From: Chamaelirium japonicum
Lineage: Eukaryota > Streptophyta > Magnoliopsida > Liliales > Melanthiaceae
DNA: 64,000 bases
Reading direction: 5' to 3'
NCBI GenBank assembly: GCA_947650365.1
Contig: OX393550.1
Coordinates: 70,615,978-70,679,977, forward strand
The stretch's first letter is position 1. Each line of letters starts with the position of its first letter. This document shows positions 2,050 through 64,000 of the stretch, one piece after another. The notes beneath the pieces are model-generated. The model was not told where the DNA came from. It saw only the letters and a list, made by a program, of their open reading frames with translations, and did not search any database. Position numbers and translations under genes: made by a program.

Positions 2050-3341
2050 TATAATCTTAAGTAGAGATCCCTTGAGTTGCCAAAAATACTAGATCAAATC
2101 ATTTTTAAGTTGGTCATGGGTTTCTCTGCTCCTGATCTGTTGATAGTTCTGGATAAACTCCATCAGATGCACCGTATGCTCGTGAGAAGCTTTTACAGTT
2201 GACGTTATATCAGGGATATTAAAGTCAAGATTGTGGATCTCGTTCATCTTCAATAATCATATTATACATTATAATGCAGGCTGTCATGATGTCTATAAGT
2301 ACATTCGGCTGCCAAAAATATGCCGACCTTTTATTATCGTAAATCGGGTTTGCAATACTCCAAAAGCTCGCTCGACATCCTTGCTTGCCTCCTATTGCTG
2401 TTGAGCAAAGTACTTATTCTTATTTCCTCGAGGTGCTGGGATGATATTTACTAATGTTGACCATAAGGGGTAAATCAAATCGGCGAGATAGTACACCATA
2501 TTATAGTCATGGCTGTTGATTGTAAAATTACATGAGATAGTTTTTTCCTCCGTAAGTTACCTGAAGACCGGTGAACACTCGAGGACGTTGATGTCATTGT
2601 GCGACCCTGACAACCCGAAGAAAGAGTGCCAGATCCATAGATCTTTGCTAGCTACAACCTCATAATTGTTGGCTTGTGAATATGGCAAGTGTACATACCT
2701 TGTCAGGCTGTTGGGCAGTTCTTCCACTTCCAGCGTATGCAATCAATGCTTCCGAGCATGCCTGAAAACCCTCGTTATTCACCTTCTGTGAGGAGTCGTG
2801 CAACATCTTTGTTATTGGGTGAACGATGATACTCCTTCCCAAAGACGCTGATGACCGCTCGAACAAACCTCTGCATGCTCTCGATCAAAGTACTTTCTTC
2901 GATCTGAACATAGTCGTCCACGAAATCGGCGGATGCTCCATACGTAAGCATCCGCATAGTGGCAGTAATATTTTAAAGACTAGATAGCCCCAATTTTCTA
3001 GCATTGTCCCTCTTTTGGACGAAGCAGTTGTTGTGGTCCACAACGACGTCGTGGATCCGTAGCTAGCAATGATGACTCATCCTGAGTCTCCGCCGAAACT
3101 GATAAGAAAGGTAAGTCGGCTGATCGACAAAGTAATCATGGAATAACCGATTATGGTCTTCCAGTCTGCTACGATCAAGCACGGCATGGCCTGGTACAGA
3201 GCCGTGTCTTCTACGTCGGTGTGAACTTTCAGCTTGCTTCTCTTCGTCGCACGCGGTGGCTCCCAGAAGAAATAACATTCGAAGGGTAGAGCTATCGTCA
3301 TTGCTGCTCGACGTGTTGTCGGTGGGGCTCAAATCGGACAT
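2050..3341 (-). pseudogene. PIF/Harbinger DDE transposase
   Basis: The plant-type transposase (PF04827/PF13359 kind) cuts and reinserts the element. Motifs appear in family order on the - strand: RRRRHGSVPGH near 3200, RMLTYGASADFVDDY near 2950, FGKEYHRSPN near 2845, GSIDCIRWKWKNCP near 2740 (first catalytic Asp), DLWIWHSFFG and GSHNDINVL near 2600 (second Asp), YYLADLIYPLWS near 2490, and VERAFGVLQTRF near 2365 (catalytic Glu). The end, with NDLI and WQLKGS, lies near 2060. The pieces fall in three frames with several stops, so it is dead. The N-terminal Met at 3341 is plausible because the similarity starts close behind it. Confidence 0.88.
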
Positions 3342-39130: not shown

Positions 39131-39711
39131 CTTCCTCCTGTGAAAGCTTGGCTCCTGAAGTGAGACTCAACTCGGTGGCATCGTTTGAAATTCCAGTCGA
39201 AATTCAAACATTTTGTAAAAAAAATTTGGTTTCGATCACGGGAAACGAAAGGGGGGTTTGAAACCTGGACCCTTCCGATTTTGGCATAGTTTCGGGATTT
39301 CGAGTGCATTTAGGTCATTTCATCAAAATTTAGACCAAAATGTGAGGGCCCACCGAAATCACGTGCTGTCCCCCAGTTTTGTTATTCAATTCACCGAAGT
39401 TTCCTCGTTTCATAATCATTTTCTCCATTTAGTCGAGATTCCAACCGAAACCGTGGGGACCCCTACCGAAATCAAGTGTTGTCTCCTGATTTCAGTGTCC
39501 ACATCACCGAAGCTTCGTCGTTTTATGGAATTTCGATAATTTCGACTGAAACGAGCCCACATATTTCATGAAACCTGTGGGCTAGTTTTGATGGGGCAGG
39601 GGCCTTTAAATGTTGGTTGAGGCCAAGGTATAAAATGTCGCGAAATTTCATGAAATATCGCGAAATACCTCGGTTTTCTCATACCTCGGCACGAAATTCC
39701 TATTGCGATAT
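39131..39711. other. GAAAT-rich repetitive DNA
   Basis: Motifs CGAAATTTC, CCGAAATC and GGTTTCG recur in both orientations, as in some small foldback elements, with GCGAAATACCTCGG near the right end. No border was fixed and no gene seen. Confidence 0.4.
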
Positions 39712-41071
39712 TGATGCAGGCTCCGATAAGGGGCGCTACAATCTTAAGCTCTTTAGGGTTTCCCTTTGGTCAATAACTAAGATTTAATTATCAAAAGGAC
39801 AACAAACATAAACTATCTCACGCAGTACTAAGAGTCTATGCAGTCAACATAAAGCAGGTTTAAGATTTAACAATAAAAGACACAATATTATCACGAAAAC
39901 TAATTTCAGCATATAAGAGATTAAATCGCAGCAATAGATATTGAGATTTAAAGATAGGTTTGCATCAGATTTTCACTAAAAATAGGCTAAGCATGCTTGC
40001 TAGGGTTACCAACAAACTAAAGATAGCAAATATAATGATTAGGCATATGTTAGGGCTTCAACTAGTGATGAACGGGAGGATTAAAGCTGCGATGCGGAGC
40101 GCAGGCAATGAAAACAAAATAAAAATGATGCGGATGTGAAGGGGAAATAAAATAAAGGATAGATAATGCCTGGGGTTTCCCGCCGTGGGTCGATGCGAGG
40201 ATGTGCCGATGATCCCGCACACGGAGCAAGGCCGGACATTGGGAGAAGCCGGATCCTTCGAAAAAATAAGTCAAGGCCTTCATGAGGCGAAGTCACGGAT
40301 GCGGCGAGGGTCGGGGACACGTCTCTCCCGGAAGCTCTCACGAAGAGGCACAAGTTTCAGCAATCATCAAAATCTGCAATCTTCTTCTTGTTTTCCCTTT
40401 TTGTAGAATTAGGGTTTTTCTTTGGATGTCCAAGATCAAAGGGAATTAAGGGTGAATGGTGGGGATGCAATGGCTAAGAAAGGCAAGGAAAAGAGAGAAA
40501 TAAGGGGGAAAGAGAGAGAGAAGAGAGAGGGCGGAAGAGGGTCGGCGGTCTTGGGTTTCGCGCGGACAAGGGGGGGCGGACGGCATGTTCACGGGAAAAG
40601 AGAGAAGGGGGGGGGGGCGGCATCTCAATGGGAAACCCTTTTGGGCTTAAGATAAGCCCATTTAACCCTAATTGAAGCCCACTTGATGCCATGTCATCAA
40701 ATTTAATATATTTTGCAATCTAACCATCGGTTTCGAGACCTAATATCGTCCGTCGGTACCCCACAAACACACACACCCAGATTTTATTAAGATAATGCAG
40801 AAAACTCATCCGAGAAGACCCGGATTCAATCCGAAAAGCCCTCGGATAAGATCATGGACATCCCCCATGAATTGGGCAAGAACATAACTAATACTAAGTG
40901 AAGAAATTAGACCAAAAACATAGAAAAAGGGCCAAAAACTGAAATAAACGGCTACAAGTTCCATATGGATAATGTCCTCCAAGCATCAAATAAAAACGAT
41001 TGGAAATAAAGGTCTCTGGCGATGAACTGAAGTTGCGGCGATGATCTGATGATGTTGATCATGCTGCATCA
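39712..41071 (-). repeat. chromovirus 3' LTR
   Basis: Bounded by TGATGCAG and CTGCATCA inverted ends. It carries a GGGG-rich, pyrimidine-flanked region near 40.5-40.6 kb. The first 800 bp match 46203-47015. Confidence 0.9.
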
Positions 41072-44000: not shown

Positions 44001-46202
44001 TCTTTTGCTACTAGGAAAAAGATAGAGCGAGATTCTCTAAGCTCGTCCTCGAAGCAAGCTTGTGTCAGCAATGTTGGTAGGGCCTTCGATTTCTCTTTTG
44101 GTAATTTCGGGGTGACGGGTGGGGGCGTCAGTTCACTAGAAATTGGTTTTAGTGGCTCCTTCTGAGGCACTAAGGTGATATTATAGTCATCTTTGCAGAA
44201 GGAGTAAGTGTTCTTCTCCCCATCATGTTTTGTCTTTCTGTCGTACTGCCACGGGCGGCCCAACAGAATGTGACAAATGCCCAAGGGCGCCACGTCACAC
44301 CAAACGGCTTCCTTATACATTTTGCCAATGGTGTATTCGACTAGACATCGCTCTTTAATAGCGACATCTGATCCTTTCTTAAACCAAGACAAGTTGTATG
44401 GCGTGACCAGCTTCTCTGTCTTGAGCCCTAACTTGTCAACCATGATCTGGGAGACCAAGTTCTCGGTACTGCCACTATCTATGATGAGGACACAATGCCT
44501 CCCCTTTGAGGTACAAGTGGTGTGGAAGATGTTCCTTCTAAGCCATCGATCAGGTTCAGGAGCTTTCGGTGTCGACAAAACACGGTGCATGACTAGTGCA
44601 TGCGTTGCCTCGTCAGCTTCAGCGACGACATCATGTGTTTCGTCATCCTCCTGATATTCGGCATCTCTAGGATCATCATCATGCCCTTCTTCGGCCATGT
44701 TGTTTAGGGTTTCCTCAGTTGGCTCTTCACTTTCTGTCAGATGGGTCTCAGGTCTCCTTTTTGGGGATTGGGCGATGAGATGTCCTACTTCTCCACACTC
44801 GAAGCATTTGTAAGTCGCTCCGGGTGGTCGACTCCCTATCGCACTTCGCTCACGACTTGGTTGTTCAACCCGACCAGGGGGTTGATGGGTTCTTGATGGA
44901 GTTGTAGTCGAAGTGGGAACAGGTGGGGTGACTCTGGTAGGAGGTACTCCTCTTCCAGCTGAAGGGGCACCTGGGGTACTCTAGGGGCAACCTCTCTACT
45001 AAAGGCTCGTTGTTGAATCTCCTCAGCCTTGAGAGCTTGCCTAGATGCTTCCATCACAGTCCCGAGACGTAGCGTGCAGCCTTCTGTTCATTGTCTTCCG
45101 GGATGGCGTTACGAATGGTCAGGATGTCAAACTCTTCAGTGTACTCCTGTACGCTTCGATTGCCTTGTTTCAGGCTAAGCAACCTTTAGTACAGAGAGGT
45201 ACGGTAGTCAGGAGGAAGGTACTTCAGTCGTATCTTGTCACGCATCTTGGTCCATGTTGCGACCTTTTGTTTCCTTTTCCTGAGGCGACTCGTTTGCAAC
45301 TCTCGCCACCAAACCAAAGCGGCTCCTTTTAGTTTCGTTGCCACGAGTTTGACTTTTCGATCGTCAGGGAGATCTTTCCATTCAAAGAAGTGCTCGACGC
45401 TTTCTACCCAGTCAAGGAATGCGTCAGCATCATGGCTTTCCCTAAAGTCATCGATGTCAACTCGGACTCCATAACCTTGGGATCTCTCAAGGGCTCGCAC
45501 AAGGCGCTCTTCCATGCCGTGTTGATCACGCGCATGCTGCTCTCTAGGGTTTCTGGGACGACCGAACTGAACGTACTCTCGTTCGAAGTCTATGTCGGAC
45601 TCGTCCAACTCAGCTTCAGACTCAGGGGGCGAATCAAGATAGTCAGCTCGATTTCGCTCTTGCGGTTGGTATCGGTTGTGATTCTGAGGTAAGGCTTGGT
45701 TCTGGTTCTGAGGTGGGGCTGGAACCGGATTTCGATTTAAGCCCTGGCGTTGGTCTTGCACTTCGACCCTATGGACCTCGGCATTTGGATTGGCTTATGC
45801 CACTCCCAGGTCCTCTTCGACCGGTCGGGTTTGAGGGTTGACGCCTCTATCTTGTAACAGTAGCCCTAGCCTATCCGTGATCTCTTGCAACAAGGTTGCA
45901 TGTCGATCCAAAGTATTTTGGGTCGGTTCTTGCCAAGCACCACGAGGTTGTGGTCCTCGAGGAAAACGTCCCCGATTCCGGGCATCCCGGTGCAGATGGG
46001 TACGATCAGCCATGGGTTATGAGATATGCAAAGGATTATGCAATTGCAGATGTTTCACACGATGCAATCCTAACACTAGATGCAATTTCAAGCACGCAAG
46101 ATTATGCGCTATGCAAAATCAGCAAAGAAGAATATGAGGGTTTGCTGAATTTCAGCACTCAAAAGAAACCCGAACAGGTTCTTTCGAGCTCTGATACCAA
46201 CT

Positions 46203-47015
46203 TGATGCAGGCTCCGATAAGGGATGCTACAATCTTAAGCTCTTTAGGGTTTCCCTTTGGTCAATAACTAAGATTTAATTATAAATATAGCATCGTACGA
46301 CTCAAAAGGACAGCAAACATAAACTATCTCACGCAGTACTAAGAATCTATGCAGTCAACATAAGGCAGGTTTAAGATTTAACAATAAAAGACGCAATATT
46401 ATCACGAAAACTAGTTTCAGCATATAAGAGATTAAATCGCAGCAATAGATATTGAGATTTAAAGATAGGTTTGCATCAGATTTTCACTAAAAATAGGCTA
46501 AGCATGCTTGCTAGGGTTACCAACAGACTAAAGATAGCAAATATAATGATTAGGCATATGTTAGGGCTTCAACTAGCGATGAACGGGAGGATTACGGCTG
46601 CGATGCGGAGCGGAGGCAATGAAAACAAAATGAAAATGATGCGAAGGGGAAATAAAATAAAGGATAGATAATGCCTGGGGTTTCCCGCCGTGGGTCGATG
46701 CGAGGATGCGCCGATGATCCCGCACACGGAGCAAGGCCGGACGTCGGGAGAAGCCGGATCCTTCGGAAAAACAAGCCAAGGCCTTCACGAGGCGACGTCG
46801 CGGATGCGGCGAGGGTCGAGGACACGCGTCTCTCCCGGAAGCTCTCACGAAGAGGCACAAGTTTCAGCTCATCAAAATCTGCAATCTTCTTCATGTTTCC
46901 CCTTTTTGTAGAATTAGGGTTTTTCTTTGGATGTCCAAGATCAAAGCGAATTAAGGGTGGATGGTGGGGATGCAATGGCTAAAAAAGGCAAGGAAAAGAG
47001 AGAAATAAGGGGGAA
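46203..47015 (-). repeat. chromovirus 5' LTR remnant
   Basis: It matches 39712-40510 and then stops abruptly at 47015, where gag-like DNA of another element begins. About 560 bp of the LTR are missing. Confidence 0.88.
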
Positions 47016-49317: not shown

Positions 49318-50087
49318 TGATGTAGCAACATCGAGCTACATATGCTATTTCATCTTTATTTTTATGTTCTAGTTGGTCGTAGTTTGTCTTTTCGGTTCCT
49401 TCGCCTATATCCGGACGAAGATCGGACGTATGGATTGTTCTCTATGACTTTTTGGCCAATGGTGCGGGGTTATGTTGCACCAATGTTTTTTATGTTTTGG
49501 CCACTTATAATGTTATGTTTTGGCCACTTATAATCTATACAGGAGGACGGAAGGCATCGGATGTCGCATCTGATGGTGGGAAGCCATGCAAGTCTAAAGC
49601 CAAGCCATTGGAGCCATTAGCCAAGCCATTTTAGCCTTTAGATGCCAGAAGGGTGCCCATAATAATCCCTAACTTAATTAAAGGGACTTAATTTAAGTTA
49701 TGGGGTGCCCTTAGCACCCAAAAAGGGGAGATCGGGATTCTCGAGACAAGACCCACGCGGGTATTGTTTCCTGTGGGCTCCCGCGACCCTCTCTCTCCCT
49801 CTCTTGCGCCTCTTTTGTTTCCATATGAGGCCATGGGGGATTTTATAAAAGGGGGATGAAAGTAAAACCCTAGTTTTAAGAAGACAATGAAGAAGAAACC
49901 CTAAAAGCTTGTTGCTTTGATTGAGAGATCGTGAAGGTGCGCTCTTCGTTCGTTGTCGTCTTCTCCATGGAGTTCCTCTGGCTTTGTCTCTTGATCTTTC
50001 TCGTCGCCTCTACCTCCTCGCCGTTCATCTTCATCGACATAGCTATCCTCTATTCCAAACCTTCGTCTGTCTCAATAGAAGAAATCA
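49318..50087 (+). repeat. chromovirus 3' LTR
   Basis: Borders TGATGTAGC and GAAATCA are inverted. A TATAAAAG box at 49844-49851 is followed by CCCTAG-containing leader sequence. The LTR abuts Tat-type sequence directly. Confidence 0.75.
49844..49851 (+). promoter_or_regulatory. LTR TATA box
   Basis: TATAAAAG in a purine-rich setting about 80 bp before the first ATG of the long frame that runs into the Tat pol region. Promoter activity is inferred. Confidence 0.45.
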
Positions 50088-53000
50088 AGCCCACCGGCTG
50101 GGAGTCAGAAGGCGAACCACCAAGGTCCCCAGAGGAGCAGGTCTCCCCGACCCATGAAGGACCTACCACTCCCACTCCAGAGCTTCACCTTGGTAACGAA
50201 GAATCCACTGATGAAGATGCATGGGTCGTGTTGCCTCGCAGACGAAGGCCATGGATGCCAAGAAGTCGCAAGTTCGATCGGGTAACAAGAAAGCTTCCGG
50301 AACGAAGAACTTACAAAAAGAAAAACAAAGCTCCAGGAAGGAGGGGATTCAAAGTACCGCCAGCAGATCCTGATGATCTCCTCCTGCAAAACCCCCCGGA
50401 ACCGGCAACGTTACAAGAGTTCTTCCCCGATTACTTCCTCCCAGCTGATCAGCTGCACGAAGCCTCCTGTTGCATGGTTGAGATTCACGTGGCGCCGGAA
50501 GAAGAAGATAGGATCAAGCCTTCCAAAGAAAGCAACACCATCAACGATGAGGATGATTCCGACAAAGAAAGCACTGCCGCTTACGATGAGGCAATTCTAC
50601 ACTTGCCACTCATAGAAGCACTACACCTCCCAGAGAAAGCTCGCCTAGCAATGGCCGAAGCTTTGACAGACCCAGACAGCTACAAAAGAAAGAAGAAAAA
50701 CGCCGAGAAGGACAAAACTATTGTCTCATGTAACGCAGCAATAACTTTCTCGGACGAAGATTTGCAGCTCGGAACACGACTGCACAATCGACCTGTCTAT
50801 GTCTCGGGATACATCAACGAGAAGCCGGTAAATCGAATCCTGTTGGATTGCGGCTCCGCCGTCAACATCATGCCTATCCAAACAATGCGCCAGCTCGGCA
50901 TCACCACCGACCAGCTCTCACAAAGCCAGCTGGTCATTCAAGGGTTCAACCAAGGAGGACAGTCCACCATAGGGATCATTCGTCTAAAACTCTCTATCAG
51001 TCAGCTTGACACGATGGTTCTTTTCCACGTCATTGACTGTCAAACATCATATCACCTTTTGCTGGGAAGACCGTGGCTGCACGAAAACGGTGTCGTAGTG
51101 TCTACTTGGCACCAATGCCTCAAGTACTACGAGGAAGGTCTGGAAAAGTGCATTGTTGCAGACGACAAGCCATTCAATGAGGCTGAAGCGCACCTCGCCG
51201 ATGCCAAATTTTACCAAGCAAAGGACCTTGTTGCAGAAGTCCTTCCAGCTAAAACTCCTCGAACTCAGAAAGCTAAAAGTATGGAGCAGGATGAAGCTCC
51301 GCCAACTCCAAATCCGGTACCACCATCTAAGGCGATACACGAAGTTAAAGAAGTGCTAGCGCCGAGACGAAGAATGCGCATCAGCTCCAAGCCAAGATCC
51401 ATGAAGCACACTCCATTACCTGCCCAAGCTACGACAGTCTTACGCCTCACACCTCAGTGGCTTCGCAAAGATGAACCACCACCTTTTGCCTCGCCAAAAG
51501 GGATGGTCCAGCCGCTATCGGAAGCTAATGTCATCACTCTGCAAGAGATGACACTGCCACTACCCAGCCTGGGGCAAGCTTCAAGTTCACCAAAACCCAT
51601 CAATCCCTTCGAATCCAGCCAACTCACATTCAAGCCAAAAGGAAGCTGGGGGCAAAATGCCGCCAAGCTGCTGTTCAAAGCTGGTTACAACGAAGGCAGT
51701 GCTGCACATATGAGTACGCTCCTGCCAGCTCCAATACCACACGGGATGACTAAGACTCAAGCCCATTTACTCCAGGGTGGCGAGCAGATCCCACCAAATC
51801 GGCGAGGCATCGGCTCTCGTCAAACCCCGGTGGTCATCAAGATAACAGGAGAGAAGACCTTCACCTCTAACTACATTGAGGTGAAGTTGGTGAATGAAGC
51901 GGAAGAGGGATCGTCAGCTTCCGATGCACGCTCTACCAATATTCATCCCGGTACAAAGGGCGCCAAAAGAAGGCGATATCGAGCTCGGCGTCGGACCGTA
52001 CCTCAAAAGCAAAAGAAGAGCATCAAAAACCAGGCAAGTCAAAATCCCATATCAGTATTCAAAAGACTTGGGCCGATTAGACAAGCAAAACAAAGGTCAG
52101 TATTCGACCGTTTGGGAAAGCCACCCACTGAGGTGAGAAAAATCATACCCACCCACCCACCCTTATCATTCTACGAAACTGGCGACATCACCGACATTAT
52201 CATGGTCTCTGTTAATCATATCACCATTTCCGACTCTCCAATCAACGCATCTTCTACTTCGGACGACGAGTTGCTCGACGCCCCGCCGGTCCTCGAAGAA
52301 GGGGGGCAATCTACCGTCGACGATTTGAAGGAAATCAACTTGGGTACGCAAGAGGATCCTCGGCCTACATTCGTAAGTGCACTCCTGACTCCCGAAGAGG
52401 AAGCTGCATACATCAGGTTACTCCAAGAATACAGAGATGTCTTTGCATGGTCCTACAAGGAAATGCCCGGACTTGACCCCAAGATTGCAGTACATCAGCT
52501 TGCCGTCAGGCATGGAGCTAGCGCTGTCAAGCAAGCACAAAGATGCTACCGGCCGGAGCTGGTACCGCAAATAGAGGGCGAAGTCAACAAGCTCATCGAA
52601 GCCGGCTTTATCCGAGAAGTTAAGTATCCAACGTGGATCTCCAGTGTGGTCCCAGTCAAGAAGAAGAACGGCCAGATCAGAGTATGCGTGGACTTCAGGG
52701 ACTTAAACAATGCATGCCCCAAAGATGACTTCCCACTGCCAATCACAGAACTAATGGTGGATGCGACAACAGGCCATGAAGCACTAACCTTCATGGATGG
52801 GTCCTCGGGCTACAACCAGATCCGGATGGCGCCCAAAGACGAAGAGCTTACGGCATTCCGCACGCCAAAAGGGATCTACTGCTACAAAGTCATGCCTTTC
52901 GGCCTGAAAAATGCAGGAGCCACTTACCAACGAGCCATGCAAAAAATTTTCGACGATATCCTTCATCAGAATATAGAATGCTACGTCGACGACCTCGTGG

Positions 53001-55605
53001 TAAAATCAAGACAAAAGTCAACACATCTTCAAGACCTCGAGCTAATCTTCAAGCGACTTCGAAGGTACCAGCTCCGCATGAACCCGCTTAAATGCGCATT
53101 TGGGGTCTCCTCGGGAAAGTTTCTCGGCTTTGTCGTACGCCATCGAGGCATCGAGATAGATCAATCCAAAATAGATGCTATCCTCAATATGCCAACCCGA
53201 AAACCGTGCGAGACCTCCGAGGTCTCCAGGGCCATCTAGCATATATCAGAAGGTTCATCGCCAACTTAGCTGGAAAATGCAGGCCCTTCAGTCGCCTCAT
53301 GAAGAAAGGAGCGGCATTCAAGTGGGATGAAGCTTGTCAGGAAGCCCTCCAAAACATCAGGGATTACTTACTCAAGCCCCCGGTTCTGACAGCACCAGTT
53401 CAAGGAAAGCCATTGGTCCTTTACATCAGCGCCCAGGAGCAGTCCTTGGGGGCACTCCTGGCTCAAGACAACGAGCTAGGCAAGGAAACAGCATGCTACT
53501 ATTTGAGCCGCACTCTCATCGGCGCGGAGCTAAACTACTCCCCGATTGAGAAGGTCTGTCTGGCGCTCATCTTCGCTACAAAAAAGCTGCGACACTATAT
53601 GTTAGCTCACGCCATCAGGCTCATCTCAAAAGCCGATCCGCTCAAATACATCATGTCAAGACCAGTGCTCTCCGGACGTCTGGCCAAGTGGGCTTTGCTC
53701 CTCCTTGAGTTTGACATCACCTTTGTCCCTCGTAAAGCGGTCAAGGGTCAAGCTCTCGCAGACTTCCTAGCAGAATACCCCCTTCCAGCAGAATGAGAAC
53801 TATCGGAAGATCTCCCAGACGAAGAAGTATTCTGCATCGACATCGCCCCTTCTTGGAAAATGTTCTTCGACGGTGCGGCCAGGCAAGATGTAGCAGGAGC
53901 GGGAGTTATCTTCGTCACACCAAACGACGAAGTACTTCCCTTCTCGTTTCTACTATCAGAGCCATGCTCCAACAACAGGGCGGAATATCAAGCTCTAATC
54001 ATTGGCCTCGAACTCGCCAATGATATGAAACTTCAAGGGCTCACAATTTTCGGCGACTCTCAACTCGTCATTCAGCAGATATTGGGGGCATACGAGGTCA
54101 ACAAAGAAAATCTCGTGCCATTGCACCTACGAGCCCTGAAACTCCTTGGTACACTCAAAGATGCTTCAATCCAGCATGTCCCCAGAAACCTCAATCAGCA
54201 GGCTGATGCGCTTGCAAATTTGGCGGCTACACTTCCGTTCCCAGAAAAAAGCCAACTCATCATCCCTATCTGTAAGAGAATGGTGATCACCGAGGAGGAC
54301 CTCCCTATGGGAATCCCGGACCAAGTCAATACAGTACACGTTTTCGTGACCGACGAGCTAGACTGGAGACAACCATTCATAGACTTTCTTGTCCACGGGA
54401 AGCTCCCTGAAGATCCGAAGCGTAAGGTCGACATTCGCCGACGGTCTCTGAAATTCTTCCACTTCAACGAGTTGTACCGTCGAAGCTACGATGGTGCACT
54501 CCTGAGGTGTCTAGCAAAAGAAGAAGTAGAAACAGCACTAGAAGAAGTCCATGCCGGGATCTGTGGCTCACATCAGTCCGGTCCAAAGCTGCACTTCCGC
54601 ATCAGGCGGATGGGGTACTACTGGCCCACTATGATCAAGGACTCCCTCGAGTTTGCAAAAAGATGCCACACTTGCCAGCTGCATGGCGACTATATCCGCC
54701 AGCCTCCGGAACCTTTGCATCCAACCATCGCATCATGGCCCTTCGATGGATGGGGACTCGATATTGTCGGTCCGCTGCCCAAGTCATCCAAACAGCATCT
54801 TTATATCCTGGCGGCAACAGATTACTTCTCCAAGTGGGCTGAGGCAGTACCATTGCGAGAAGTTACCAGGCACTCTGTCATCAACTTCATCCAGAACGAC
54901 ATCATCTTCCGATACGGCATACCTCGCTATATCGTTACGGACAACGGGAAGCAATTCAAAAACGCCGCCGTCAGCCAATTTTGCGCCAAGTTCGATATCA
55001 AGCAAAGGTGTTCAACCATGTACAACGCCTCTGCCAACGGCCTAGCTGAAGCTTTCAACAAAACACTCTGCAAACTTTTGGAGAAAGTCGTCTCAAAGTC
55101 GAAGAAAGACTGGCATGAACGCATGGGCGAAGCACTGTGGGCGTATCGCACCTCTTTCCGCACGCCAACACAGGCAACTCCGTACTCACTAGTGTACGGA
55201 GTAGAAGCTGTCCTCCCACTTGAACTCCAGATCCCGTCACTCAGGATAGCCATCCAGGAAGGCCTCGTCAATGGCGACAACACTCAACTTCGCCTAGCAG
55301 AATTAGAAGCCCTGGATGAAAAACGCCTCGAAGCCCAGCAACGCCTGGAATGTTACCAGGCTAGGCTAACCCGAGCCTTCAACAAAAGGATTCGCCCTCG
55401 ATCCTTCCAAAAAGGAGAATTGGTGCTCGCAGTCAAACGCCCCATCATCCTTTCGCATCGAGGAGGAAAGAAGTTCGACGCCAAGTGGGATGGACCTCAC
55501 GTTATCAAAGAGGTCTACTCCAACGGCGCATATCTTCTCACCACGCCAGAAGGGCTCACACTCGGCCCTATCAATGGCAAGTACCTCAAAAGGTACTATG
55601 CCTAA
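50088..55605 (+). pseudogene. Tat pol region (protease to integrase)
   Basis: Recognisable signatures: LLDCGSAVNIMP (protease), WISSVVPVKKKNGQIRVCVD and CYVDDLVVKSR (reverse transcriptase), a first RNase H ending near ALADFLAEYPLP, WKMFFDGAARQDVAGAG with GDSQLV (second RNase H), and CHTCQLHGDYIRQP, GLDIVGPLP and TDNGKQF (integrase). Long spans are open, with about two breaks. This is fossil retroelement coding sequence, not a host gene. Confidence 0.88.
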
Positions 55606-55859: not shown

Positions 55860-56885
55860 CTAGTAAAGCGAATCAAATCCTTTGAGACGTTGGAGCAGCT
55901 CGCCATCAGTAACCTCCATGCACTCAAACTCTGAAGACCGAGAAGCTACCCGCTCCCGGTGCGCCGCCAGCTCGATACGCTGCTTTGCCAAGTCTGCTCC
56001 AGAAGACTTCTCGATCGTCTCAGCTTTCTCGAAAGATGCGCGAGCAGCCTCTAGCTTCTTCTGCGCCCGAACAAGGCTCGCAGCAGCAAGTGCATGCTGC
56101 GCCTCCAGTCGACGCTCCTCGTCCTCGGCCTTTGCCAGTATCAGGGGGAGGTCATCTTCCATCGAAGCCCGTTTCAAGCAATGAGCTTCACTATCCGCCA
56201 AGAGAACACGTATCTGTGTCTCAAACAAAGAGCCATCTACCTGGAAGGCCGCCAGACTCTTGCAAAACTCAGGCCCCTCGAGGACCCACCAGCTGCTCAA
56301 AGCGGCAAAGCCCTCTTCCTGGAAGGTTGCAAGCGTCGTCTGGATATACTTCCGACAGCTCTCCAAAAGAAGCACAGAGAGAAGGTCCCGCGAACTGTAC
56401 TTTCTCTTGTCTGCCTCTGAGTGCGCGGGCAAGGTGGGCTCCGGCCCTGAAGGCTCAGGTGAAAGAACCGCCTCCTGGACCATCGCCGTGATAACAGTCA
56501 GCGGAACCACCGGAGCCAAAGGAGGAGGCACAGGCAAACCTTCCGACAAAACAACTGCGGGAGTAGCCTCTGCCGGAGTACCGGACCTAGCTGGAGGAGT
56601 CTGTTCTCTCCCTACACTGGAGACCTCATCTTCCTCCCCAAAGCCCAACTGCTCCACGTCAATATCATCCAGGTTGACAGCACTGCCGGTAAAGTCTGCT
56701 CCACACGCTCCCAAAAGCTCCAAGTTATCCCAGGGAACATCCAGCCCGCCACCTTCGATCAACGTTGCTCTGATGGGAGAGCACTCCTGCCCAACCCCCT
56801 TCCGGGCAGACTCGCAGTCCGGTCCAGCAGACCCTGCCAAAATAAGAGCTGGACAACTCAGCCAACGAAGTAAGAATACAAGCAC
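55860..56885 (-). CDS. Antisense coiled-coil ORF of the Tat element
   Basis: The open frame of 341 codons is antisense to the element's pol. The C-terminal third is a strong coiled coil rich in Ala, Glu, Arg and Lys (EDEERRLEAQHALAAASL, then heptad-like repeats). The front is acidic and Pro-rich. It directly follows the plant-mobile-domain ORF; the short gap between them has intron-like GT and AG borders, so both may belong to one spliced transcript. The first ~20 codons would then be intronic. Function unknown. It is an accessory gene of a retroelement, not a host gene. Confidence 0.65.
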   Translation of the reverse strand: MLVFLLRWLSCPALILAGSAGPDCESARKGVGQECSPIRATLIEGGGLDVPWDNLELLGACGADFTGSAVNLDDIDVEQLGFGEEDEVSSVGREQTPPARSGTPAEATPAVVLSEGLPVPPPLAPVVPLTVITAMVQEAVLSPEPSGPEPTLPAHSEADKRKYSSRDLLSVLLLESCRKYIQTTLATFQEEGFAALSSWWVLEGPEFCKSLAAFQVDGSLFETQIRVLLADSEAHCLKRASMEDDLPLILAKAEDEERRLEAQHALAAASLVRAQKKLEAARASFEKAETIEKSSGADLAKQRIELAAHRERVASRSSEFECMEVTDGELLQRLKGFDSLY

Positions 56886-56901
56886 ATAAATTTATGAGAA
56901 A

Positions 56902-59019
56902 CTAAAAACAAGATATACCTGCAGCGTCCGATAAAGATACCCCAGAAGGAGGGATGACCCCATCGACAAAAAGCCCTGGCTCTCCGTCTCGAGCTGGCCC
57001 TGCCTCGCCAGCACCAGTCAAAGCTGCCTCACACAAGAGGTCCAACTTTCTCCTCTTGGGAGAAGCACCCCCACTCCAAGAAGCCTGAGTCTCAGGAAGG
57101 CCCTGAACCTTGGAAAACGGAGCCATCTCAACTTCTTGCACAGAAAGTGAAGCCTGGGAAGTACTCTCTCGACGGCCACAAGATTTCTCTGACCATCGCT
57201 CCTCGGACCAGAGACGGCGATCCTCTGACCCCGCCAAAGAGTCAAAAGGAAAGTCAGCCCGCTCGCTGCTAGCAAGGACGTCTAGCGGAAGGTCAGCCAA
57301 GAGGGGAAGCACTGACCCGTTGACCCAGCGACGATACTCAGGAGTTGCGGCATCCTTGCCGCCCGACTTAATCCCCGGTGAGAAAGTACACCCAGTAAAA
57401 CGATCGTAAAGTGCTCCCCAGAGGCGGTACGCCTCCTGCGGAGTGTAACGTAACCGCAGGCGCAAAGGAGTCCCAGGCAACTCCTGCCGAAAACCCTGCT
57501 GACGAGCAAACCGGTGGGGAGAGTACCGGGCCACCTCCACTACATCCCCACGGCGCCAAACAAGATACCCAGGCCTGCAACTCACCATGCTCCAGTACAA
57601 AGGATCGGACATCTCCGGCCCATCGCACACCAGGGATTTCATAGAAGGCGCCAGTGCATTTTCCGATACAAATTCGAAGTCAGAGGGGCCCATGCGCCGT
57701 AAACACTCTCGGGCACCAGGCTTCGGACGCTCCCATGCATAAAAAGCGTTCATTACACCTCCCACACAAGGAAGAAAGGGCACCGAGGTCGAAGGTCCAC
57801 GCGCCGCGAAGATCCCCTTCGGAAAGTGGAGCCCAATCCAACCATAGAGGTAATGCAGGGGGCAAAAGGAACTGGCTCTGCCTACTTCCCCTCTTGCATT
57901 ACCCGCACTCGATAGACTCCAATAAGTGCCGCTAAGCCCGCCATACAACGAGCAGAGGATCGCCGGCGCCAGATTAAGGAACTCTCCAGTCACCATCCGA
58001 GCAGCTGCAAGGAAGGTCCCAGGGCGTACCACATCCCCTTCCCAGGGTAAAGCAAAGCGGCAGAGAAAGAGTACTAACCCCGCTGACCAGTAAACAGCAC
58101 GCCAGTCATCACTACACTCTTCAAGTCCCAAGACTTCCCAGGGACGCTGCGCCCCGGCCATGGAGCACCACTCTTTCTTCAGAGATTCGATCGGTCGCCG
58201 GAAGGTGCCAGGCGCCGGCCTCTTTGACGAGGCATATCTCCACATCGGGTGACTCGAAGGAGGAGCGTGACGATACTCTCCTCGAAACCAGAAGTCCACC
58301 CAATCCGAGTGAAGTACCCGGTCTGACCGCTCGCGCGCCGCTATAATAGCATACGCCTTAAAAAGCAAAAGGCAGAAGCTAGGAGACTCATCTGGGTCCG
58401 TCAAAACCTCCAGGGAAGGAACCTCCTCCTGATAATAGCTCCGAACTTCTGGACACCCAGAGATGACATGCACATCACGAAGGGTGATCCCGATTTCACC
58501 AGCTCCAGTCAAAAAGGTATTGGTCTCGGGGCACCACTGCTCACACAGAGCCCGGTACATACCGTCTGGTCGACTGTACTCCCAACAAGCTGGCTCCACA
58601 AACCTCGCCAAACGTTCCATCCCTGGCTCTGCCTCCAACGCGCTGGATAGCTCTTTCATCCAGTCCCGGAAACCTCCCAGATAGGTGACATCTCCACGCG
58701 ATTGAATCCCCACACCCCATCGCGTACGGCGGGAACATATCTTCAAAGCAACAACAGGGACCGGAACCGAATCATCTCCAGTATGGTGAAACGATAACCC
58801 CAAGCTCGGCCGGACAATTTGCCGGGAAGACCCTTCGTCAGTAAGGATGCGCTCGCCAAGTTTTAACACTCGACAAGAGCCGTCGGTCACACCATCCTCG
58901 CAAACTCGCTCGTGCGTCAAAAGCTGAAGCACTGACAACCCGGTCTCCTGTCTCGAAGCACGGTAATGGGAGACTTGCGCGAAGGGGAAGCGAAGGTACG
59001 TACTCCCGTGGGAGACCAT
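56902..59019 (-). CDS. Antisense plant mobile domain (PMD) protein of the Tat element
   Basis: A long intact frame runs antisense to pol. I start it at the ATG at 59019 (MVSHGSTYLRFPFAQ), because the frame upstream is low in similarity to anything and carries an AG acceptor-like site just before it. Roughly residues 110-450 look like the plant mobile domain (PF10536, aminotransferase-like, as in MAIN/MAIL1): GEIGITLRDVHVISG, then FRRPIESLKKEW, AGLVLFLCRFALPW, FLNLAPAILCSLYGGL and HYLYGWIGLHFP. The C-terminal part is Ser/Glu-rich with a basic KRRKLD motif, possibly nuclear. Related elements are known to carry such antisense ORFs; what they do is not known. No break was seen. Confidence 0.72.
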   Translation of the reverse strand: MVSHGSTYLRFPFAQVSHYRASRQETGLSVLQLLTHERVCEDGVTDGSCRVLKLGERILTDEGSSRQIVRPSLGLSFHHTGDDSVPVPVVALKICSRRTRWGVGIQSRGDVTYLGGFRDWMKELSSALEAEPGMERLARFVEPACWEYSRPDGMYRALCEQWCPETNTFLTGAGEIGITLRDVHVISGCPEVRSYYQEEVPSLEVLTDPDESPSFCLLLFKAYAIIAARERSDRVLHSDWVDFWFRGEYRHAPPSSHPMWRYASSKRPAPGTFRRPIESLKKEWCSMAGAQRPWEVLGLEECSDDWRAVYWSAGLVLFLCRFALPWEGDVVRPGTFLAAARMVTGEFLNLAPAILCSLYGGLSGTYWSLSSAGNARGEVGRASSFCPLHYLYGWIGLHFPKGIFAARGPSTSVPFLPCVGGVMNAFYAWERPKPGARECLRRMGPSDFEFVSENALAPSMKSLVCDGPEMSDPLYWSMVSCRPGYLVWRRGDVVEVARYSPHRFARQQGFRQELPGTPLRLRLRYTPQEAYRLWGALYDRFTGCTFSPGIKSGGKDAATPEYRRWVNGSVLPLLADLPLDVLASSERADFPFDSLAGSEDRRLWSEERWSEKSCGRRESTSQASLSVQEVEMAPFSKVQGLPETQASWSGGASPKRRKLDLLCEAALTGAGEAGPARDGEPGLFVDGVIPPSGVSLSDAAGISCF

Positions 59020-59134
59020 ATCAACAATCCAGCCGGAACTCGGAAAGCTCTCGTAACGACGAGACCTGAAAAAGAAAGAACACAAAGCCCTAGTCAGATG
59101 GATTCCGAGTACAGAAACAAAGAAATCAAAAGGG

Positions 59135-59490
59135 GGGGCCTTCAACAAAATAAAGAAAGACAGAGGGGGGTAATGGCAAAAAGCCACGACCCCCCCCCCT
59201 TATCTCTCCTATTAAAGGGGGGGGGCCTTCAGCAAATAAAGAAAGACAGAGGGGGGTCACAGCAAAAAAGCCATGACTCTATCTCCTCTCTCTTGTTAAA
59301 ACTAGCAGGGAGGGGGCCTTCAGCAAATAAAGAAAGACAGAGGGGGGTCATGGCAAAAAAAAAAGCCACGACCCCCCCCCTATCTCTCCTATTAAACTGC
59401 AGGGAGGGGGCCTTCAGCAAATAAAGAAAGAGAAAGGGGGGTCATGGCAAAAAGCCACGACCCCCTCTCTCTATCTCCTGTTTTACATGC
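59135..59490. repeat. Tandem repeat, ~85-bp units, four copies
   Basis: Each unit has GGGGGCCTTCAGCAAATAAAG, AAAGACAGAGGGGGGTCA, GGCAAAAAGCCACGACCCCC and TCTCTCCTATTAAA. Unit lengths vary between about 80 and 95 bp. It lies upstream of the antisense genes and would be in their 5' leader or an intron. Confidence 0.9.
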
Positions 59491-59494
59491 AGAG

Positions 59495-59990
59495 GGGGGG
59501 GGGGTGCGTCGTCCCCGCCTACGCCGCCGGCCCCCGCGCCCTGCCGCTCCGGCCCACGGCTGCCGCGCCGTGCCGCTCCGGCCCCCGCGCCCTGCCGCTC
59601 CGCGCCGCCCACGGCCCCCGCGCCGTGCCGCTCCGGCCCACGGCCCCCAGCGCCGTGCCGCTCCGGCCCCCGCGCCCTGCCGCTCCGGCCCACGGCTGCC
59701 GCGCCGTGCCGCTCCGGCCCCCGCGCCCTGCCGCTCCGCGCCGCTCCGGCCCCCCGCGTCGTGCCGCTCCGGCCCACGACCCCCGCGCCCTGCCGCTCCG
59801 GCCCACGGCCCCCGCGCCCTGCCGCTCCGGCCCACGGCCCCGCCTCGCGCCCTCCTCCCGCGCGCCGGCCGCCACAGCAGCCCCCGGCCGCACCCGCGCC
59901 TCGCACCCTCCGACTCGCGCCTTCCCACGCCTCCAACCCGCGCGCCGGCCGCCACAGCAGCCCCCGGCCGCGCCCGTCGTGCCCTCCCGC
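59495..59990. repeat. Extremely GC-rich minisatellite
   Basis: The core CGCCCTGCCGCTCCGGCCCA and variants repeat every 27-30 bp (sometimes doubled) more than ten times. C and G make up most of the interval. It opens Ala/Arg/Gly/Pro-rich frames in all six phases, none of which I take as genes. Confidence 0.92.
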
Positions 59991-60306
59991 ACCATGCGAA
60001 GAAGAAGAAGGGGAAGAAGAAGAAGGAGGAGGAGAAGAATCACCTCGCCGGCAACCCTCCGCCGTCCACGGGCCGGCGATCTTCCCTCCTCCGCGAACCC
60101 CATGGCGTCACCATCTTCATCCTCCTCGGCATCGTTGCGAAGCAAGAAACCCTAGCAGAGCTCTCGACTCCAAGCCGCCGGGAATCGCTGATAATGAAGA
60201 GAAACGAAAAACAGGGGTCCTTTTAAAGACCTAATCCCACGAATACGCGACTCAAGTCCAACCGCTACGCGTTTCCCGCGGGCGCACTCGAACTTGAGGG
60301 GGCACT
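59991..60306 (-). promoter_or_regulatory. Possible promoter/leader of the antisense genes
   Basis: On the - strand a stretch near 60160-60060 reads like a plant 5' leader (CTAGGGTTTCTTGCTTCG), and GT sites lie downstream. It would place the transcription start of the antisense genes next to the LTR. This is inference from composition only. Confidence 0.3.
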
Positions 60307-60464
60307 TGTGGGCATCGAAATTAGCCCACGGGTCGAACCCGATTCTTACACAAAAAAAATAGGCCCGAACCCAACGGCCTTCGGGTCGAACCCGATTTGT
60401 ACACGAAAAATGGGCCTGCACTCGATGACCTTCGAGTCGAACCCGACTCGCTCATGCAACTTGG

Positions 60465-60690
60465 GCCCGCACACAACGGCCCGCATGCACACTCGGCCCG
60501 CACACAACGGCCCGCATGCACACTCGGCCCGCACACAACGGCCCGCATGCACACTCGGCCCGCACACAACGGCCCGCATGCACACTCGGCCCGCACACAA
60601 CGGCCCACATGCACACTCGGCCCGCACACAACGGCCCGCATGCACACTCGGCCCACACACAACGACCCTCATACGAAATTGGGCCCGCAC
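60465..60690 (+). repeat. 31-bp minisatellite in LTR U3
   Basis: About seven units of CGGCCCGCACACAACGGCCC plus GCATGCACACT follow each other at a strict 31-bp period; the last units are diverged. The repetitive frames it opens on both strands are artefacts. Confidence 0.95.
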
Positions 60691-60867
60691 ACGAATGGCC
60701 CGCATGCGAACTCGGCCCGCGTGCAAACCCAATTCGCGCATCGCGGCCCAACTCGAAGCAAACGGGTCCCACCGGACCCACGACTCGAACACAAAGAGGG
60801 GGGCCCACCGGCCCCCCCCCCCTCTTGAAAACCGTGCCTCCCTCATCAAAGAAAGGTGGGGCCGGCC

Positions 60868-60945
60868 ATAAAAGAAAAAGAAAAGAAAAGAAAAAGAAAA
60901 GAAAAGAAAAAAAAAAGAAAAGAAAAGAAAAGAAGAAAAAAAAAT
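60868..60945 (+). repeat. A/G-only tract
   Basis: Nearly 80 bp of AAAAG-type units without pyrimidines. It may form unusual DNA structure in the LTR U3. Confidence 0.9.
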
Positions 60946-61247
60946 CAAAACCGCCTTGATGCGGGGGGAGGTGGCGTGGACGTCTACACAACCGTAGATC
61001 CGCGACGATCCCTCGATCCAACGGACAAGATGACGTTGTGTCGCCATCCGATCCAAAAGTGCAACAAAAATAACAACTCGATCTTTAAAGATCGAGTCAC
61101 ATCTAGCCCATAACCACCCCACCTAAAAAGGAGGGGATCGAGTTTGTTTCCCCGAATCAAGGAACAATATCTTGATGGTTATGGGGGAAGATATTGGATG
61201 AAACAAAAAGATTTCAGCAATATCTCCCCCAACCACCCACCTTTGCC

Positions 61248-61256
61248 TATAAATAG
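61248..61256 (+). promoter_or_regulatory. Tat LTR TATA box
   Basis: TATAAATAG followed by a purine-rich start region (GAGGGGGTGGGGG). It marks the likely U3/R boundary about 30 bp on. Confidence 0.55.
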
Positions 61257-62289
61257 AGGGGGTGGGGGAAGGCATCAAGGGTCCGAAAGCCGAAGACGAA
61301 AGAGCTCCGCAAGAGAAGCTCCAACGCTCGACGACCGAAGGCTTCACGAGGCACGGCAAGCATATCCTACGGGAGTCCTTGGCCCTTCAAGTCCTCATCA
61401 ACGTGAAGACCTTGCACTCGAAGGTCAAAGCTTCGACTCCTCGCACGAAGAAGAAAGCCTGGAGAAGAAGACCCGGAGCCGTCATCACCCGATTGCTCCA
61501 ACGATCTTCATCAGCTCCGAAGACGCCATAAGCAAAGGCCGGAGAAGAAGATCGAAGCCGACAATACCCGTCGTCTTCAACAAAGGCATCAGCTCCTTGC
61601 ACGAAGAAGAAAGCCGGGAGAAGAAAGCCTGAAGCCGGCGCTACCCCTGCCGCCTTCGTCAATCAAAAGCCGACGCTACAACCGTCGTGCCGAAGCCGGT
61701 GCTACACCCGCTGTCTTCATCAACAAAAGCCGACGCTACAACCGTCGCACGAAGATCGGTGCTACCCCCGCCGAAAAGCCAATACCGACGCCACAACCGT
61801 CGAGGAAGCCGGAAGAAGAAAGAAGCCTTGAAGAAGCAACGCCAGTCGTTCGAGAAGAAGATCGAGTCAAAGCTAAAGTCAAAGCCGACGCAAGAAGCCA
61901 AAGCAAACGCCCCGGTAAAGCCCGCGCTAAAGCAACGCACGTGCCAAAGCCAAGCAACTACGACGGTCACGAGCAAAGCACCGCACGTTCTAGCCGATAC
62001 GACGCGAAGTCCGGAAGAACTAAAGCATCGCAAGCCTCTACCCGTCTACGTTCAAGCGCAAGCGCCAAAGCAAAGCAAAAGCCAGAGCCACACCAAAGCT
62101 ACGCCAAAGCCGAAAGCTAAAGCCAAAGCCGAAGCCAAAAACACGATCGACGCCGCGAACCGACGATCAAGGACGCCAAGGTCTAGCAAGGATCGAGGAA
62201 GACACGAAGGTCGAGGAACGAAGCCCAAAACCTCCCTAGCCGAGAAAGCGCGAAGCACGGACGGGACAAAATCAACGGCGGAAACTCCT

Positions 62290-62542
62290 TAGCCTCTCAA
62301 AAACCCTCATCCTGTAAAGACCTCTGTCCTGGGCAACCCCTTCAGAGCTCTCGCACGAATACCACGTGGAGACGCGGATCAAAGGGACCCTCCAGAGGAT
62401 CTCTCCCACAATCTCCTGATCAAAGAAAATTTGTAATCTCGTGTGATCCGCAATAAAGACGACCCGAATCTTTTTCCGCGACCACACATGCATAAACGAT
62501 GGCAAATTAAGAAACCAAGACAATAGGATTAAATTAGATCTC
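62290..62542. other. Junction of Tat LTR and following repeat
   Basis: No gene seen. It contains an AATAAAG near 62452 that could serve as poly(A) signal of the LTR. Confidence 0.35.
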
Positions 62543-63140
62543 AATAGGGTTTGCAAATAATAATTTTAGCAACTAAGTATGCATGCAAAGGACTAATAAA
62601 AGGTTCGGACGACGATCCAACGGTGTACCAAGCAATCCAAAACCAAAATTAGGGTTAGGGTTTATTACGGTTCTATGGCAGGATGCGATAAAAGCCAACG
62701 ATACCAAATGACATATGATAATTATCAAAAAAACGAGGAAAGATAATACCAGTGAGATTCAAGATCTCTATGCGAATAGCTTTACTCGATGAAGATGACG
62801 AGGAAGATCGAGAGAAGCCAAAAGAACTCCACGCTAAAAACGTTGACGAAAATAGGGTTTGCAAATAATAATTTCAGCAACTAAGTATGCATGCAAAGGA
62901 CTAATAAAAGGTTCGGATGACGAACCAACAGTGTACCAAGCAATCCAAAACCAAAATTAGGGTTAGGGTTTATTACTGTTCTATGGCAGGATGCGATAAA
63001 AGCCAATGATACCAAAGGACATATGATAATTATCAAAATAACGACGAAAGATAATACCAGTGAGATTCAAGATCTCTATGCGGATAGCTTTACTCGATGA
63101 AGATAAATGGCGAGAGGTAGAAGATGACGAGGAAGATTGA
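62543..63140 (+). repeat. 308-bp tandem duplication with CCCTAA-type motifs
   Basis: The block starting AATAGGGTTTGCAAATAATA begins at 62543 and again at 62851 and runs in parallel to about 63130 with few differences. Both copies contain ATTAGGGTTAGGGTTTATT. Copy 2 has an extra ~19 bp near its end. Confidence 0.93.
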
Positions 63141-63292: not shown

Positions 63293-64000
63293 ACTAACGG
63301 ATCTTTAGTTACTTCTGTTTTTATTTCTGGTTTGGGTAGGTGCGAGCCATGTTCGCATCCGGTTCGAGCCACAGATGCCGAACTGACTCATTTCCGTGTT
63401 AGGTTTTTAGCCGTAGGATATTAAGTTAGGATAGATCTCAATGGATGAGATTCTAGGGGAAATCAAAAACCCAAAACCCTAGCCCAAACTTCCACCCGAC
63501 CGGCCCTCTCTCTCTCTCCCGCGAACGCCCCGCTCCCCCTCTCTCTTCCGCGCGTCTCTCTCTCTCTCTCTACCCGACCGGCCTCTCTCTCTCTTTCTTT
63601 CCTTTTGTGTTTTGTGTCTCATCCCCTATAAAGCCTAAAACCCTAATTGCAAGAGGGGAGAAGAATCTGAAATTGAAACCCTAGAACGGAGAAGCGGCTC
63701 GCTTGTTCGGTTTATCCCTTCCGAAGAATTCCTCTTTGCTTCCAGTCTTTTCTTCCTTCCGCAAGCTTCTATCCTGTCGCCTCACCATTCGTCTACGACT
63801 TCACGGAAGATCGACGTGGAGTTTCTTCGTCTTCAAAGATCCATCGTCTCGGCTTCTTTACCCCTTCTTCTGGACCACGCCTCCCCCTTCCGCGCCTTTC
63901 ATCTGCGACAAAGGAGCATCGGAAAGCCGCCGGCATTGACCAACGCACGGTTTGGATTATCCTCTGATCTTTTCATGTGATATTTTTCCTTCTCGCAACC
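63293..64000 (+). repeat. Dispersed LTR-like repeat, copy B
   Basis: Matches 1-720 in the same order and orientation, with a TATAAAG box at 63627-63633 and the leader CCCTAGAACGGAGAAGCGG. It continues past the window edge. The family is unassigned. Confidence 0.6.

Follow-up and report, generated by a model that had tools for sequence, protein, structure and literature searches.

A predicted three-exon plant mobile domain gene on the antisense strand of a Tat-type retrotransposon of Chamaelirium japonicum

Results

The window analysed here, a 64 kb stretch of the Chamaelirium japonicum genome (contig OX393550.1, positions 70,615,978 to 70,679,977; assembly of 1.52 Gb), contains a Tat-type Ty3/gypsy retrotransposon which carries, on its antisense strand, a candidate gene for a protein with a plant mobile domain (PMD). 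Two long antisense frames, of 765 codons (56902-59199, minus strand) and 343 codons (55860-56891, minus strand), were located between the end of the sense pol remnant (55605) and the start of the 3' long terminal repeat (LTR; 60307), which is the position of an aORF-3R. Both frames were present where an initial annotation, made from the sequence alone, had placed them; that annotation took them for a pairing of two proteins, whereas the most fitting reading makes them exons 2 and 3 of a single gene of ~1069 codons, predicted to encode one spliced protein.

The predicted gene lies entirely on the minus strand. A TATA-like box, TTTAAAA, was recognized by eye at 60221-60227, ~80 bp inside the 3' LTR start, and the start codon of exon 1 follows ~90 bp downstream; together they correspond to the leader of its own, beside the LTR, that the initial annotation had suspected. 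The coding part of predicted exon 1 (60044-60132; an ATG, 29 codons in all plus 2 nt, with a basic N-terminus) is supported by its conserved ATG, open frame and lack of indels, and ends GAG/GTGATT (the slash marks the exon border), in the phase required by exon 2. Predicted intron 1 (59066-60043; 978 nt, GT..AG in the window) consists of GC-rich tandem repeats and purine tracts, and its acceptor, at 59066/59065, reads TTTTTCAG/G. Predicted exon 2 (56919-59065; 2147 nt) holds the PMD and then a linker with the motif PKRRKL. Predicted intron 2 (56834-56918; phase 1) reads GCAG/GTATAT ... TTTTGGCAG/GG, 85 nt, and its excision preserves one frame, so that the intron-like gap noticed earlier between the two frames fits a GT-AG intron. 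Predicted exon 3 (55860-56833; stop at 55862-55860) comprises a proline/acidic stretch followed by a coiled-coil-like C-terminal region. The three exons joined give one 1069-codon frame with 0 stops.

The PMD announced for the first frame was confirmed by Pfam, the exon 2 frame matching PF10536 with 60.6 bits (gathering cut-off 34.9; E 1.9e-16), and the columns W..ET.TF, E and L.DV were invariant with L001, a host-like PMD gene of this genome, and with L003. The basic motif, first described as KRRKLD, was also retained, PKRRKL being conserved in the linker of 30/30 family copies. The exon 3 frame had no Pfam match at E <= 0.05, exon 2 had 0 matches among solved structures at E <= 1, and PF04195 (TRP28), the domain by which the Retand lineage was sought, had no match in either antisense frame. 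The strong coiled coil that had been claimed for the second frame was borne out in its heptad pattern and not in its strength: with a heptad score of our own devising, 0/300 shuffles reached the observed value in a 42-residue window, 2/300 in a 56-residue window and 9/300 in a 28-residue window, which moderately supports a predicted C-terminal coiled coil.

Family copies were found through the antisense gene itself. The exon 2 protein query yielded 63 scored matches out of 4644 first-look candidates and the exon 3 query 123 out of 6593; these are the best-scoring copies and hence a biased sample, in which 44/63 (the window's own included) and 110/123, respectively, were without a stop. The loci read were 30 selected through exon 2 and 20 selected through exon 3, representing 42 distinct places, since the 50 alignment rows include 8 second readings of the same place. 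In exon 2, 29 further copies were 96.8-99.1% identical to the window copy; 22 of the 30 copies had this exon stop-free and none had an indel in it, though these copies had been chosen on exon 2. Among the 42 distinct places, exon 3 was stop-free in 36 and carried a frame-breaking indel in 3.

Selection on the frames was assessed by classing variants according to the number of copies carrying them, and by comparing nonsynonymous (N) and synonymous (S) changes with those expected for identical base changes in matching CpG context. In exon 3, as read in the 30 copies selected through exon 2, singletons were close to neutral (N 62, S 26, omega 1.14), whereas variants found in at least 3 copies were depleted for amino-acid changes (N 22, S 29, omega 0.37, P 3e-4). 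The 42 distinct places gave omega 1.02 for singletons and 0.49 for shared variants, and over 200 subsets the median shared omega was 0.43 (central 95 percent 0.37-0.68). The 20 copies selected through exon 3 gave, over the final 1300 nt of exon 2, omega 1.03 for singletons and 0.43 for shared variants (n = 21). The other frames of the antisense strand gave omega 1.7-3.4. Neutral evolution of the frames, which like a missing PMD would have spoken against the initial annotation, was not borne out, and selection on the frames is supported. Since shared variants were depleted while the private ones of exon 3 were near-neutral, the gene was probably preserved during the multiplication of the element, which suggests that its product served the element in that period.

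It could be argued that the antisense RNA, and not a protein, is what matters, pairing with the sense RNA and feeding small interfering RNA (siRNA) production or copy control, with the frames as leftovers. Antisense transcription over the sense RNA may give rise to double-stranded RNA (PMC7264820), and 175 PMD genes with phasiRNA loci have been reported in tea (PMC10673657). A role for the RNA alone, however, predicts no constraint specific to a frame, whereas amino-acid changes were depleted among the shared variants. Moreover, in the 30 copies there were 0 stops among the shared variants of exon 2 (3.5 expected) and 0 among those of exon 3 (1.7 expected), while intron 1 was free to vary in length (28 different values among the 30 copies, from 835 to 1402 nt, distributed 10/10/10 modulo 3). 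We regard this alternative as improbable, if the best surviving of those considered.

The initial annotation had set the start of the first frame at an ATG at 59019. This codon was ATG in 1/30 copies, the others having GCG (n = 20), GTG (n = 6) or ACG (n = 3), indicating that it is not the start codon of the family. The first in-frame ATG common to most copies comes only after 135 codons of exon 2; in these codons, variants present in at least 2 copies were depleted for amino-acid changes (N 15 where 31.6 were expected, S 36 where 17.2 were expected; omega 0.23; P 3e-7), in the same biased sample chosen on exon 2, in which singletons there gave 0.66. As these codons look translated before any widely shared ATG, translation should start upstream, and exon 1 supplies an upstream ATG in 29/29 copies. 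This ATG had the same context in all 29 readable copies, the frame of exon 1 was open in all of them and free of indels in 30/30, and its variants likewise held fewer amino-acid changes than expected (N 7 where 12.3 were expected, S 10 where 4.3 were expected; P 0.004). The last four bases of the TATA-like box and the next ten were identical in 29/29 copies.

Splice positions were conserved: acceptor 1 was AG in 30/30 copies, and intron 2 measured 85 nt in 49/50 rows, with a GT donor in 48/50 and an AG acceptor in 50/50. The two long frames with a gap between them might also be taken for two separate antisense genes, one for a PMD protein and one for a coiled-coil protein, each with its own start; against this stand the rarity of the 59019 start, the absence of a common ATG from the first 135 codons of exon 2 and the fit of the gap to an intron whose removal keeps one frame, so that two genes appear less probable still than a role for the RNA. 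We consider it very likely that the gene is spliced as drawn.

Two types of donor 1 were observed among closely related copies (L029-L058), GAG/GTGAT versus AAG/GCGCGT or GCGGGT. The GC type has AAG before the border and G and T at +5 and +6, and the GT type has T at +5, as if the changes at this donor were mutually compensating.

The element bearing the antisense gene was identified by its sense pol remnant (~50045-55605, plus strand), in which Pfam recognized, in order, RT, RNase H (RT_RNaseH), a second RNase H (RVT_3), H2C2 and the rve integrase; a protease-like match fell below the cut-off. The start of the remnant is where similarity to a relative located on C10 begins (~50045; blastn, E 1e-10). 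The second, archaeal-type RNase H lies between the first RNase H and the integrase, an arrangement that marks the angiosperm Tat elements (Ogre/Retand) (PMC6317226). The assignment to Tat in the initial annotation was therefore upheld, and the element is a Tat-type Ty3/gypsy retrotransposon, abundant in this genome. The integrase adjoined exon 3 in 20/20 loci chosen on exon 3.

The 3' LTR (TGTGGG...CCACA; 60307-62486, plus strand) was delimited by means of the relative on C10, which was read in separate pieces (L061, with the 5' LTR, gag and the start of pol; L060, with the 3' LTR). This relative is an LTR retrotransposon with LTRs TGTGGG..CCACA, a 5-bp target duplication (CGCAC) and a gag matching PF03732 (E 2.3e-14). 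Its LTRs were identical at 3018/3050 gap-free sites, which, at a substitution rate of 1.3e-8 per site and year, would correspond to an age of about 0.4 million years. The 3' LTR holds a 31- to 32-nt tandem array (window 60422-60716) whose length differs among copies (window, L060 and L061), and a sense TATA-like box was seen by eye near 61240.

The sense pol had been described as slightly decayed; the decay proved greater, with one frame change and one stop in pol, a single LTR (no 5' LTR was found within the 64 kb) and no match to the gag of the relative on C10 anywhere in the window. The window copy would thus be truncated or interrupted at its 5' side, or have its remainder outside the window. 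No tRNA genes, sought to name the primer of the element, were found within the window (n = 0). A 254-base direct repeat (96%) occurs at 62543-63104, just past the end of the 3' LTR. Outside the Tat element, the window ends (1-697 and 63293-63982) are 76% identical in the same direction. A direct repeat of ~0.8 kb, 93% identical (39711-40510 and 46202-47015), resembles the LTRs of another element of ~7.3 kb.

The same genome has a host-like single-exon PMD gene, L001:835-2910 (minus strand; 691 aa; full-length PMD match of 334.7 bits). Its existence would fit the view that the antisense gene is a former host PMD gene, a transduced fragment carried passively and without function for the element; the thousands of first-look candidates, the prevalence of stop-free scored matches, the constraint on shared variants and the separate clades formed by Gypsy PMDs (PMC5418596) make this very improbable. 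That the window locus was domesticated by the plant, as its open antisense gene in a copy with neither 5' LTR nor gag in the window might suggest, is scarcely credible, given that nothing sets this copy apart from 29 close relatives and from the many other stop-free copies of exon 2.

A search of the genome for the TRP28 domain gave 137 matches among 150 scored, of 5979 first-look candidates. In one TRP28-type gene (L062:697-3492, minus strand), whose exon layout was read by eye, the order was a TATA box, an ATG, the TRP28 domain, AKKKRKV, an acidic linker, two GT-AG introns and a helix-rich last exon. The two long frames recurred in five further TRP28 loci (L063-L067), the first of them being interrupted by a stop in L065; all these loci were read as genes alone. 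Homology of the PMD with TRP28, or of their C-terminal exons, was examined with hhalign and rejected (probabilities of 0.33 and 0.88 percent, from very shallow profiles); the likeness between the two kinds of gene is accordingly architectural only. A short stretch of similarity where their exons join was given no weight.

Discussion

The explanation that we favour, and judge likely as a whole, is that the antisense strand of the element holds, between pol and the 3' LTR, an accessory gene for a spliced nuclear PMD protein acting on behalf of the element. A promoter of its own beside the 3' LTR would give an antisense transcript; two introns would be removed, and the mRNA would encode a nuclear protein whose N-terminal portion holds the PMD and whose C-terminal helix associates with itself. 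This protein would most likely act in trans in the nucleus, favouring the expression or integration of the element. The antisense direction would also account for the survival of introns: reverse transcription starts from the sense RNA, in which they are not spliced, and the 85-nt intron is therefore retained from copy to copy. We have little doubt that this is a protein-coding gene used by the element, and somewhat favour the view that the product is a nuclear accessory regulator. Of the initial interpretation, a transposon-borne PMD, a helical C-terminal region, a basic motif, a leader and predicted introns are supported, as is selection on the frames; the two-protein pairing is better replaced by one spliced protein, and the action on host chromatin or silencing proposed there stays conjectural.

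Several observations weigh against this explanation. Only in 14/30 copies were both exon 2 and exon 3 open and the latter without indels. Donor 1 was GT in 6/29 copies and GC in 23/29, and GC donors are a minority class of splice donors. In the 20 copies chosen on exon 3, the shared omega of that exon was 0.93, on 16 variants only, and exon 3 is far less constrained than the integrase of the family (shared omega 0.04 in 20 copies). Exon 2 itself, in the 30 copies selected through it, gave omega 0.53 for singletons and 0.14 for shared variants, the latter value being biased low because the copies were ranked by protein similarity; the figure given above for its first 135 codons shares that sample. 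The complementary sense frame also had a low omega (0.20 in exon 2 and 0.36 in exon 3), which is due to coinciding third positions, and it had 2 stops among the shared variants in each of the two exons. Finally, the element PMD was only 26% identical to that of the host-like L001 over 95 residues, a distance at which a common partner is not implied.

The last point bears on the route by which the protein might act. Transposon silencing by MAIN and MAIL1 is for the most part independent of DNA methylation and siRNA (PMC5418596), and the two proteins act with PP7L (PMC7156037). That the protein competes with host PMD proteins of the MAIN/MAIL type is no more than a plausible conjecture, and anti-silencing through that pathway seems rather unlikely. 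A broader proposal is more doubtful: that a spliced antisense anti-silencing PMD protein interferes with MAIN/MAIL-PP7L, that host PMD genes may descend from such a gene, that the antisense direction lets an intron-bearing gene ride in a retroelement, and that the PMD- and TRP28-type genes answer one and the same need in two ways. Whether host PMD proteins came from retroelements or the reverse is an open question (PMC5418596).

The high-copy family, its maintained PMD gene, the clear gene model and the TRP28 counterpart make the function and origin of antisense genes testable. If the exon model is true, surveys based on open reading frames (ORFs) cut one spliced protein into pieces. A spliced PMD antisense gene may, tentatively, be undescribed. 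Searches of the literature for antisense, retrotransposon, intron and PMD together retrieved only an orchid survey, and, for Retand, intron and antisense ORF, the titles and opening parts of abstracts that were inspected announced no spliced antisense gene.

Accessory genes of this general kind in transposons are already in the literature (Ikeda 2017; Neumann 2019; Vicient and Casacuberta 2020; Vicient 2025), in agreement with the initial annotation, which noted antisense ORFs in Tat relatives. PMD was the commonest non-canonical domain in the Gypsy consensuses of one survey (PMC9289625). The PMD-A clades, which are exclusive to Gypsy elements and widespread in angiosperms, share with the present family a PMD borne by such elements; no orientation, exon structure or C-terminal helix is described for them in the text consulted (Ikeda et al. 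2017, PMC5418596). PMD was present in 57% of Ogre elements and TRP28 in 23% of Retand (Neumann 2019, PMC6317226). The Ogre elements with PMD-bearing extra ORFs share the PMD and the second RNase H between RNase H and integrase, the position and orientation of the PMD frame not being stated in the text consulted (PMC6317226). MAIN and MAIL1 share the PMD family (PMC5418596, PMC7156037); they are host genes acting in silencing, and were compared only through the host-like L001.

The TRP28-type genes of this genome are like the PMD gene in their basic motif, predicted introns and helix-rich last exon. A further antisense gene is gene23 of maize Grande, for which Gomez-Orte 2013 is reportedly the source study. 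The predicted gene shares with gene23 the antisense orientation and the location between pol and the 3' LTR and, as proposed here, a promoter of its own and a nuclear protein; it differs in that no clear similarity to other proteins is reported for gene23 (PMC7264820, PMC11963269). Retand elements have antisense TRP28 and SMC-like frames, with TRP28 in 97% of clusters (Vicient 2025, PMC11963269). Their genes differ by having TRP28, and the words 'PMD' and 'intron' are absent from the main text of that study; they share with the gene predicted here the antisense position between pol and the 3' LTR, tandem repeats, the SMC-like antisense frames and a proposed regulatory role (PMC11963269).

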